In this document: positions 7,367-9,944 of the stretch, piece after piece | Position numbering within the stretch: the stretch's first letter is position 1 | Layout: the number at the start of each line of letters is the position of its first letter | Source: a virus | Strand: one strand, 5' to 3' | DNA: 56,030 bases | Virus record (IMG/VR): IMGVR_UViG_3300022744_000033 | Coordinates: 1-56,030 of that record | Program-made: the position numbers and the translations under genes | The notes under the pieces: generated by a model | Database searches by the model: none | What the model saw: the letters and a program-made list of their open reading frames with translations, nothing else | What the model was told of the DNA's origin: nothing

Positions 7367-9944
7367 TCGTCAAGCTCCGTGCATCCGCCGCATTGAGCGC
7401 CAGCGCGCTCACGACGTCAACACCAAATGTGTGCCAAAAACGACGTTGCATCACGCGGTCGTCATCGCCCGCCGCCTTGCGCACGCCGCCCCAGGTGGCC
7501 ATCGCCTCGCGCAGTTCGGCCTGGGCCTCGGTCTTCGCGTGGTGGTGTTTCTTGATCGCGCCCACGACCGCCAAGCTGGCACCGTGCGGGAACTTGGGGG
7601 CCGCGTCCACGTCGCGCCACATGCGCTCAAAGACCGACCGGTCCAGCAGAGTCAGATCGCCCTCCACCAGTTCCGGCGCGCTGCGGCCAGCAGGCTCCAC
7701 GGCGTGGCCGCAGAAGGGGCATGCAGGCAGCACACGCTCATAGGGCCTCGTGCATTGGGGGCATACCCGCATCGGGATGCTGTCCGAGGCCCCCTTGCTG
7801 GACGACCGTTTCTCGCGGCGGTCCAGCGACCACTTGCGCGGCATGTCCGGCGGGCCACGGTGGCGCACGACGTTGCCCACATGGTCGAGCACCGTGGCAA
7901 CGGTCTTGCCCTCGGCGATGCGCAGCGCGCGGCCAAACTGCTGGGCGTAGAGGCTGAACGACTGGGTGGGCCGGCACATGCTCACCATGTCCAGGCCGGG
8001 GAGGTCGAAGCCCTCGCCCACGAGGTCCACGTTCGTGACCTGCAGCACCTCGCCGTTGCGCAGCTTGCGCAGGATCTGCGCGCGGATGAGGTCGGGCGTC
8101 TTGCTGCTGATGACTTCGGCCGGCACGCCCGCCGCGCGGTACGCCTGGCACTGCTCGGTCGCGGCCTCGATGTCGACGCAGAAGGTGATGCCGCGCTGGC
8201 CGGCGCAGTGCTTGAGGTAGTGGGCCACCGCATCGCCGACGATGTGGCTGGAGTGGACGGCTTTGCGCAAGGGTTCTGGGCTGTAGTCGCCGCTGGCGCT
8301 GGTCGGGACCGCGCTCAGGTCCAGGTCGGACGGCGGGCAGAAGATTTGGTAGTCGGACAGGAACCCCATGTCGATCAACTCGCGCATGGTCGGGCCTTCC
8401 ACCATCCAGTCAATGAGCCCGTCAGCATGCCGGCCGAGCCCCAGTCCGTCAGCGCGGCAAGGGGTGGCAGTGACGGCTAGGCCTTGCGCGTTCGGCATCA
8501 TCTTGGTTGCCGCGCCCCACTTGTTTTCCCGCAGGAGGTGGTGGCAGTTGTGGACCACGATCCCGCCGGCTATGTAGGTGTGAAGCCCAGCGACTTCAAT
8601 ATTGAAGACATAACCTCGTTCATCACCTTCGGCCAGTCGTTCAGTATTTGGTCGTTCGAGAATCTCAACACTGTCCAGCCCGACCCACGCAGAAACTCGT
8701 CTTTCTTCGCGTCCTGCAGCTTGCGCGACGCCAGTTTGTGGGAGTGCCCGTCCGCCTCGATGCCGATTTTCAACGTCGGATTCCCACAGTCGATTTTGTA
8801 GCAAGGGGGTAGCTTCAGCGGATTGCCGCTTCGCATCCCGGTTTTCACCACGCATTGCTCCACAAACCCGAGTCCGCGCAAGTTCGTCACCAGCATCACC
8901 TCGGCGGCTGTCGGAGCCTTGCCGTTGCCCCCGCGCACCTTCGGCTGATACCCGATCGCTTTGAGCGAGGCGCTCACCTTCTCCTTCACCCCGGGTTTGG
9001 ACATCGGGTTGTTGGCCTTCATGCGCGCCGAGGCGTACTTGAGATTCGTTCGCGCCATCGTCTCCGAGGAAATCCTGGACCGGTACGCCGAACTGCACAC
9101 CTTGCTGCAGTAACAGCGACCGACTTTCCTCAGTTGCAGTTCCTGCGTCCTGGACCCTAGGAAGGGCGTCCTGCACTCCGTACAGGTCAGTTTCGGTGCT
9201 GTCTCGATATTCAAGGACATGATCGTCTTTCCGAAGGTTCGCCGCTTCCACCCAGCCACGCTGAGTGAAGAAGGGGTGCCCTGGAGTGCAGTGTAAAACA
9301 TGGTGTCTTTTCGTGGTCACACGCACCATGTTTTTCGGCATCGGGTTGCGGAACAGGCGCACGACCGGCCGCTGCTCAAAGCCGCCGGTTTCCTCGTTGA
9401 AGGCGGTCACGAGGTCGCCGGGCTTCAGCGACTCGATCGGCTTCCCGTCAACGAGGGTGCCGGCCGGGAAGCACTCGTCCTGCACCCATAGCCCCACCCG
9501 CGACAGCCACGGCTCGCTCGGGTTGACCCGGATGAGGGTGTCCACGCTGGCGACCTTGACGCGGGCCGAGGGCTCATAGAACGACCGCCCGAACTCGTCC
9601 ATGTGCAGCCGCACGATGCCGCGAATCGTGGCATCAGCTGCCACGATGCCGTGGCGCACGCCGGCCTGGCCGAGCGCAAGGCTGATCTGCGCGACAAGCT
9701 CATGCCGGTGCGCGATGGCCACGGCCGGGCCGTCGAACTCGCGGATGATGTGGCTGAAGGTCCGGGTCTTGCCCGCGCCCGTGGGGAGAACGGCCAGCAC
9801 GTTGCGGAATCCCAGCGCCCAGGCGCTGTAAACCTCGCTGACGACCTTCTGCTGATAGGGGCGTAGGGTGAAGCCCGCCCCAGGGGTCGGCAGGACCGGG
9901 TGGTCCTTCAACCACGCTTGGGCTTCGTTGCGGATCTGGCTCAC
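7338..9944 (-). CDS. SF2 DNA helicase with an in-frame intein in the Walker B box
   Basis: 868 residues before splicing, 559 after. The helicase parts show Walker A PTGAGKT (54-60), Walker B DE/CHH split by the intein after residue 157, motif III TATPCRAD, motif V DLVGEGFDLP, motif VI QQFGRALR and a C-terminal CPQC...CPFC zinc ribbon. It resembles phage RadD/DEAD-like helicases that unwind DNA in replication or recombination. Start is GTG 9944 behind GAGGGT, overlapping the upstream TGA as GTGA. ATP hydrolysis should need intein removal because the Walker B acid pair is separated from CHH. Confidence 0.9.
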   Translation of the reverse strand: MSQIRNEAQAWLKDHPVLPTPGAGFTLRPYQQKVVSEVYSAWALGFRNVLAVLPTGAGKTRTFSHIIREFDGPAVAIAHRHELVAQISLALGQAGVRHGIVAADATIRGIVRLHMDEFGRSFYEPSARVKVASVDTLIRVNPSEPWLSRVGLWVQDECFPAGTLVDGKPIESLKPGDLVTAFNEETGGFEQRPVVRLFRNPMPKNMVRVTTKRHHVLHCTPGHPFFTQRGWVEAANLRKDDHVLEYRDSTETDLYGVQDALPRVQDAGTATEESRSLLLQQGVQFGVPVQDFLGDDGANESQVRLGAHEGQQPDVQTRGEGEGERLAQSDRVSAEGARGQRQGSDSRRGDAGDELARTRVCGAMRGENRDAKRQSAEATPLLQNRLWESDVENRHRGGRALPQTGVAQAAGREERRVSAWVGLDSVEILERPNTERLAEGDERGYVFNIEVAGLHTYIAGGIVVHNCHHLLRENKWGAATKMMPNAQGLAVTATPCRADGLGLGRHADGLIDWMVEGPTMRELIDMGFLSDYQIFCPPSDLDLSAVPTSASGDYSPEPLRKAVHSSHIVGDAVAHYLKHCAGQRGITFCVDIEAATEQCQAYRAAGVPAEVISSKTPDLIRAQILRKLRNGEVLQVTNVDLVGEGFDLPGLDMVSMCRPTQSFSLYAQQFGRALRIAEGKTVATVLDHVGNVVRHRGPPDMPRKWSLDRREKRSSSKGASDSIPMRVCPQCTRPYERVLPACPFCGHAVEPAGRSAPELVEGDLTLLDRSVFERMWRDVDAAPKFPHGASLAVVGAIKKHHHAKTEAQAELREAMATWGGVRKAAGDDDRVMQRRFWHTFGVDVVSALALNAADARSLTNELLQRVRP
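8547..9473 (-). mobile_element. Intein (309 residues) in the helicase DE/CHH box
   Basis: Helicase residues 158-466. Block A starts at Cys1 (CFPAGTLVDGKPIESLKPGD), block B holds the TxxH motif (LHCTPGHPFF), block F is GYVFNIEVAGLHTYIAGG, and block G ends VVHN before Cys+1 of the C-extein. All canonical splicing residues are present. The region between blocks B and F has no LAGLIDADG or HNH motif in this frame and is low-complexity and hydrophilic; it is the out-of-frame reading of a separate endonuclease gene. So it is a splicing mini-intein carrying its endonuclease in another frame. Confidence 0.9.
8570..9220 (-). CDS. Homing endonuclease nested out of frame inside the intein
   Basis: 216 residues, +1 frame relative to the intein. 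It has an N-terminal Cys4 zinc finger (CTEC...CYCSKVC), a NUMOD3-like segment NNPMSKPGVKEKVSASLK, then a Vsr-like nuclease: Glu in TAAEVMLVTNLRGLGF, Asp in CYKIDCGN, and IGIEADGHSH. Start is ATG 9220 with GGAAAG eight bases upstream, so it can be translated on its own. Its last 17 codons overprint intein block F, and its TAG lies within the intein codons for Tyr-Ile. It presumably cuts intein-free helicase alleles. Confidence 0.85.
   Translation of the reverse strand: MSLNIETAPKLTCTECRTPFLGSRTQELQLRKVGRCYCSKVCSSAYRSRISSETMARTNLKYASARMKANNPMSKPGVKEKVSASLKAIGYQPKVRGGNGKAPTAAEVMLVTNLRGLGFVEQCVVKTGMRSGNPLKLPPCYKIDCGNPTLKIGIEADGHSHKLASRKLQDAKKDEFLRGSGWTVLRFSNDQILNDWPKVMNEVMSSILKSLGFTPT

Follow-up and report, generated by a model that had tools for sequence, protein, structure and literature searches.

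The viral contig IMGVR_UViG_3300022744_000033 (IMG/VR; the window is the whole 56,030-nt stretch analyzed, and all features of the locus described here lie on its minus strand) encodes an SF2 helicase interrupted by an intein, and the DNA lying between the two ends of this intein also encodes, one base shifted, an endonuclease. This element is very probably a mobile composite, made up of a splicing-competent intein inserted in helicase motif II and of an independently translated zinc-finger/DUF559 (EDxHD-type) homing endonuclease. At the sequence level, this reading rests on the two frames, the shift kept between them, the avoidance of stops, the selection acting on each frame in its own regions, and the occurrence of alleles with and without the element. 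While the initial annotation treated the overprinting as a one-off, it belongs to a widespread element, present in at least 85 distinct loci and always in a fixed register. According to the mechanism that we propose, the helicase frame would be read straight through, the Hint domain would excise itself and the helicase function would survive. A second initiation on the same mRNA, near the end of the Hint N-terminal half, would give rise to the endonuclease as a protein of its own. This enzyme would cleave intein-less helicase alleles of co-infecting phages or prophages, and repair would copy the entire intein, endonuclease included.

The helicase intein and its second reading frame

The intein interrupts DE/CHH (the slash marks the insertion point) inside SF2 motif II, with Cys1 at 9473-9471 and Asn309 at 8549-8547 (Table 1). 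The coordinates first proposed for the intein and for the shifted open reading frame (ORF) are right, and the splicing blocks are backed by Pfam and NCBIfam matches (intein_Nterm 3.6e-5, intein_Cterm 7.5e-6). Profile searches also match the intein to solved inteins, including the Spl DnaX mini-intein. The class 1 intein residues C1, T63, and H66 (block B T-x-x-H) are invariant across relatives (sets A3 and A5), as are H308 and N309 (set A5), and the +1 residue is a Cys, replaced by a Ser in locus L041. The GC content falls from 67.6% in the exteins to 62.1% in the Hint N-terminal half (Hint-N) and 57.6% in the endonuclease, which fits a foreign origin.

AlphaFold was run separately for each frame, with its own alignment. 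It confidently predicts a Hint fold at both ends of the intein frame, with disorder in between, and for the other frame an endonuclease that folds. Among solved structures, the endonuclease best matches 3hrl and the catalytic domain of I-Bth0305I (3r3p) (E 4e-3 to 8e-3, probability 1.00), the TM-score of the model with 3r3p being 0.69-0.70 by target, and the profile search agrees with these matches. A DUF559 match is returned for 23 out of 23 members of the family formed by this homing endonuclease gene (HEG). The segment SARMKANNPM...KVS, conserved in relatives, presumably resembles NUMOD-type DNA-binding motifs. The 216-residue zinc-finger endonuclease starting at 9220 behind a GGAAAG, as proposed in the initial annotation, is borne out by the ORF and the DUF559 match (1.4e-11), the pairing of the ribosome site being modest. 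Its label of Vsr-like is better given as DUF559/EDxHD, the nearest solved folds being 3hrl and the homing endonuclease I-Bth0305I. Two figures are to be corrected: the distance from the endonuclease stop to the end of the intein is 23 bases (7-8 codons) instead of 12 codons, and the stretch in which both frames are recognizable covers ~110-130 bases (HEG residues about 173/179-216) instead of ~50.

An endonuclease ORF with a start of its own is nothing unusual in a group I intron, and the locus might accordingly be viewed as a self-splicing RNA intron carrying such an ORF, the host frame being open by coincidence. However, the class 1 splicing residues are conserved, AlphaFold predicts a Hint-like fold at both ends, and the host frame is free of stops across the 85 loci, leaving this explanation next to no probability. 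Rfam returned 0 matches to group I or group II introns in the window and in seven relatives, and none at loci with a free-standing endonuclease.

Table 1. Features of the interrupted helicase gene and of the endonuclease overprinted on its intein (pLDDT, predicted local distance difference test; SD, Shine-Dalgarno)
Feature	Position	Strand	Evidence
Host gene: SF2 (RadD-like / phrog_16) helicase, 868-aa precursor including the intein	7338..9944	-	ORF; Pfam ResIII 3.7e-13, Helicase_C 1.1e-10; phrog_16 3.9e-80
N-extein, C-terminal end ...LWVQDE (Walker B / motif II)	9474..9944	-	
C-extein, N-terminal start CHHLLRENKWG	7338..8546	-	
Intein, 309 aa, Cys1...His308-Asn309, +1 Cys	8547..9473	-	Pfam Intein_splicing 1.8e-11; catalytic residues invariant among relatives
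Hint N-terminal half, residues 1-93, blocks A and B (CTPGHPF)	9195..9473	-	AlphaFold pLDDT ~95
Intein-frame linker, residues 94-257, predicted disordered	8703..9194	-	pLDDT ~35; intein-frame drift in close pairs
Hint C-terminal half, residues 258-309, strand WVGLDSVEILE and blocks F, G	8547..8702	-	pLDDT mostly ~95, lower at 271-290
Endonuclease ORF, 216 aa and stop, +1 frame relative to the intein	8570..9220	-	Pfam DUF559 1.4e-11; AlphaFold mean pLDDT 87
GGAAAG, candidate ribosome-binding site 6 bases 5' of the ATG	9227..9232	-	anti-SD duplex -3.5 kcal/mol, modest
HEG zinc finger, Cys 13, 16, 38, 42 (invariant or nearly so)	9095..9184	-	alignment of relatives
HEG segment SARMKANNPM...KVS, conserved in relatives (set A4)	8972..9031	-	
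HEG nuclease domain; D144, E155, D157, H161, D170, K173 invariant	8603..8800	-	DUF559 at residues 141-206; 3hrl / 3r3p folds
Dual-coded segment: HEG residues ~179-216 over the Hint strand preceding block F and block F	8573..8684	-	third-position conservation

Fixed register, stop avoidance and selection

A tblastn search with the endonuclease matched 41 phage records, each with <60% identity. In the seven phage records examined, the match is shifted by +1 relative to the helicase coding sequence (CDS) of the annotation, and is itself devoid of CDS annotation. Searches of viral and genome contigs returned >100 further loci, 80 of 251 viral relatives being taken in. The class of each locus was set by profiles of the intein N-half, the intein C-half, and the endonuclease, frame openness not being a criterion. 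The HEG frame is +1 in 85 out of 85 distinct homologous loci with an intein match, with host genes that include SF2 helicases, SNF2-type helicases, and bacterial DnaX. The loci range from named phages of Pseudomonas, Vibrio, and Corynebacterium (including phi673, whose host is the laboratory strain Corynebacterium glutamicum ATCC 13032) to DnaX genes of bacteria. Loci L099, L101, and L102 are DnaX clamp-loader genes of bacterial assemblies, with the overprinted intein at DE/CH. A search by the intein N-half alone retrieved 80 loci, of which 77 possess the +1 endonuclease, 3 are HEG-less mini-inteins of 135-139 residues, and 0 are in frame. The sole exception among loci with an intein match is L107, an archaeal (Nitrosotalea) radical-SAM gene (4563-6539) whose intein contains a distant homologue of the DUF559 nuclease in frame. 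Intein halves in different ORFs were found at no locus among those profiled. At 70% identity, the 81 loci in which both ends of the intein are present form 72 clusters. Since these loci share ancestry, they are not independent trials, but they do show a constraint kept over long divergence. The register is also fixed in length: in 64 out of 81 loci, the conserved HEG Trp codon (strand GWTVLRF) and the end of the intein are exactly 131 nt apart.

Expected stop numbers were obtained by shuffling synonymous codons within each HEG. Inside the HEGs of the 85 distinct loci, 0 intein-frame stops are observed vs 754 expected, and the third frame contains 1396 vs 1291 expected. The window HEG alone exhibits 0 intein-frame stops vs 4.66 expected (P=0.003), its third frame containing 17. 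HEG codons ending in T/C number 0/1268 before codons beginning with AA, AG, or GA, and 3210/2498 elsewhere. In the 21 relatives without an intein match, 167 stops are found vs 172 expected, and the in-frame relative L107 has 32 vs 35 expected. Each host codon combines position 3 of a HEG codon with positions 1-2 of the next one, and a host stop therefore requires NNT before AA, AG, or GA. As NNT and NNC are always synonymous, any HEG protein fits the intein frame (0 unavoidable stops in 81 out of 81), and the other forward frame would impose at least one unavoidable stop on 78 out of 81 HEG proteins (mean 2.8). The codon table thus provides a simple reason for the choice of frame, as a T-to-C change always removes an intein-frame stop. 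Hydropathy, considered as another reason, was dropped: the linker is hydrophilic, with a grand average of hydropathy of -1.04, yet the third frame, at -0.99, is hydrophilic as well.

The first rival explanation is a sequencing or assembly frameshift, the endonuclease being truly in frame as in canonical inteins, which carry an in-frame endonuclease fusion (PMC3943268); the distant L107 does so too. Against it, the shift is +1 in 85 loci from separate genomes, separately sequenced phages included, the two intein ends and the helicase form one ORF in each, and the intein frame avoids all 754 expected stops. A hidden frameshift is excluded for practical purposes. A search for intein-frame stops in relatives likewise returned 0 interruptions, the endonuclease frame being open too. 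A HEG stop noticed in the Vibrio phage CP-T1 corresponds merely to an earlier C-terminus, the ORF spanning nearly the whole HEG profile.

Selection was counted in five close pairs, not all independent. In the overlap, the ratio of synonymous to non-synonymous changes (S/N) is 88/38 in the HEG frame vs 39/87 by chance, and 23/103 in the intein frame vs 38/88 by chance. In Hint-N outside the HEG, the intein-frame S/N is 33/13, selection being purifying in most pairs. The HEG-frame purifying signal together with the drift of the intein-frame linker therefore indicates that the middle DNA mainly serves the endonuclease, the intein frame being only kept stop-free. The situation differs towards the 3' end. 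At four-fold HEG codons specifying the same residue, third-base identity is 1.03-1.12x expectation for residues 1-172 vs 1.98x, and up to 3.5, at residues 173-216. In this part, the DNA of the nuclease strand GWTVLRF encodes the Hint strand GLDSVEI when read in the intein frame, and block F comes next. Third-base conservation indicates that both frames are constrained in the last ~110-130 bases. These data also bear on the idea that the endonuclease is a dead fossil, its frame remaining open only since the host frame forbids indels. The helicase frame does shield this DNA from frameshifting indels, but it is no shield against missense or nonsense changes in the HEG. The HEG-frame S/N nevertheless departs from chance (88/38 vs 39/87), and the catalytic and zinc residues show little or no variation (set A4, window included). 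A fossil is therefore very unlikely.

Regarding translation, the median distance between the opening of the HEG frame and the start of the HEG profile is 4 codons, and this distance is 8 codons or less in 59 out of 81 loci. Shine-Dalgarno (SD) pairing at HEG start sites averages -6.3 vs -5.1 for a matched control (p=0.0026). Both features indirectly favor separate initiation over frameshifting. A strong claim on ribosome sites was weakened by the matched control. A programmed +1 frameshift after the Hint N-half would instead produce an N-extein/Hint-N/endonuclease fusion. It would account for the HEG always lying in the frame one base downstream, and the window HEG frame is indeed open for 27 codons 5' of its ATG. 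Nevertheless, the short opening upstream of the profile in most loci and the SD pairing at start codons, which beats that of the control, make such a fusion unlikely.

Mobility, origin and genomic surroundings

The inteins of L005 and L007 are 94% identical vs 84% and 74% for their flanks, and the elements of L087 and L089 are 99% identical vs 90% for the flanks; the L074 and L080 elements are likewise more alike than their flanks. Among the Vibrio phages close to K391, which carries the full element, 234P10 has an empty DE/CHH site and 1.103 an empty DEAHH site, while K389 and K453 (L203 and L205) harbor a HEG-less mini-intein of ~150 aa at the helicase insertion site of K391. Similarly, 142E35-1 is the empty-DEAHH relative of 159E43. 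As for homing-type elements, alleles with and without the insertion thus exist at a fixed site, and the element is closer than the flanks in most pairs. The distances of HEG and Hint are correlated (Mantel r 0.62, permutation maximum 0.19).

Several points weigh against a mobile composite with a separately translated endonuclease. Splicing, independent translation, cleavage, and homing are all steps that we infer from sequence. The contrast between intein and flanks is weak for L021/L022 and L074/L077, and the HEG-frame purifying signal is absent from L074/L080 taken alone (5/7). The window HEG has a modest ribosome site of its own (-3.5), and the SD signal shrinks under the matched control. 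Lastly, in 22 out of 81 loci, window included, the HEG frame is open for >8 codons upstream, and frameshifting may occur there.

A free-standing HEG homologue is located directly upstream of an intein-less helicase in the viral contigs L044, L063, and L070. An endonuclease beside its target gene is the arrangement known from collaborative homing, and these loci resemble, by analogy, an endonuclease parked next to its target. In L063, the frame of the intein-less helicase is broken exactly at the DE/..HH site (5107-5120), just downstream of the free-standing homologue; this break could reflect a sequencing error, or else be a trace left by cutting or by loss of the element. The initial annotation proposed that a free-standing endonuclease had invaded a mini-intein. 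The homologues of these three contigs and the mini-inteins at the same site make this plausible, but the tree does not give its polarity. The free-standing forms are dispersed over it with low support and L107 sits on a very long branch; therefore, the tree leaves the direction of invasion unsettled. On balance, we lean towards a large and ancient intein class that evolves separately, in which the HEG is a second gene overprinted in a fixed register. The strand GWTVLRF/GLDSVEI would be structural in both proteins, the frame would be set by the codon table, and the class would have a single origin from a free-standing endonuclease beside its target gene.

Directly downstream of the helicase, two methyltransferase ORFs (6305-7366 and 6316-7308, both on the minus strand) overlap nearly completely in different frames. 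They match phage DNA methyltransferase families (phrog_363 3.3e-81; phrog_1008 3.6e-25), and synonymous shuffling gives a P(0 stops) of 0.006 and <0.001 in the two directions. From their sequences, they form an apparent second overprinted pair in the window.

Relation to known systems and significance

In a textbook intein, one and the same polypeptide combines splicing with homing (PMC3943268). Class 1 inteins with in-frame LAGLIDADG or HNH domains, such as the PI-MtuI RecA intein, share with the window intein blocks A, B, F, and G, the insertion in a conserved nucleotide-binding motif, and the location of the nuclease DNA between the Hint halves. In contrast, the window nuclease lies in another frame and is predicted to be made as its own protein, leaving only a disordered linker in the intein polypeptide. 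The EDxHD (Vsr-like) endonucleases of phage introns, exemplified by I-Bth0305I, resemble it by their nuclease fold and by being made apart from the splicing element. However, I-Bth0305I-type ORFs and the split-intein 'fractured gene' loci are found in introns or between split-intein halves, and do not overlap a contiguous intein. Such fractured loci, with a separately made homing endonuclease, were reportedly described by Dassa et al. in 2009.

A likeness in dual reading comes from actinobacteriophage DNA methylases, in which the ShiLan domain and the Pacc40 gp60 insertion encode out-of-frame HNH endonucleases (PMC11855218, Genes 2025). There too, an alternate-frame endonuclease resides in an insertion while the host frame is open, and in relatives of Pacc40 a similar nuclease directly precedes a methylase that was not invaded (PMC11855218). 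Unlike the present element, which combines a DUF559 nuclease, the full blocks of a conserved intein, and dual coding, these insertions carry an HNH nuclease without a splicing domain, are predicted to be retained, and have no detectable ribosome site (PMC11855218). A brucellaphage terminase gene likewise contains an out-of-frame HNH endonuclease, termed intein-encoded by its authors, and the relevant passages of that paper contain no analysis of splicing blocks, register, or selection (PMC4422536). Out-of-frame HNH genes in other phage insertions are already known (PMC11855218, PMC4422536). No description of a DUF559 overprinted intein lineage was found in the literature covered, which did not extend to the preprint of Gosselin, Arsenault, and Gogarten 2025 on actinobacteriophage inteins ('Non-Canonical Architecture') and to Gorbalenya 1998 ('Non-canonical inteins'). 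Both are cited for overlapping frames in PMC11855218; they may already describe inteins with overlapping-frame endonucleases, and constitute the main uncertainty as to novelty.

Splicing and homing would be uncoupled in a whole lineage: the level of the nuclease could be set independently, and the nuclease could mutate without affecting splicing. A frameshifting indel in the HEG would break the host gene, which may help the HEG to escape the usual decay of intein endonucleases. The element also provides a well documented overprinted pair: two unrelated folds are encoded in a fixed register, the diverged sequences are many, selection is visible in both frames, and the codon table offers a simple reason for the frame. 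As the endonuclease is unannotated in seven out of the seven phage records examined, many genomes probably contain genes of this kind that have escaped annotation.
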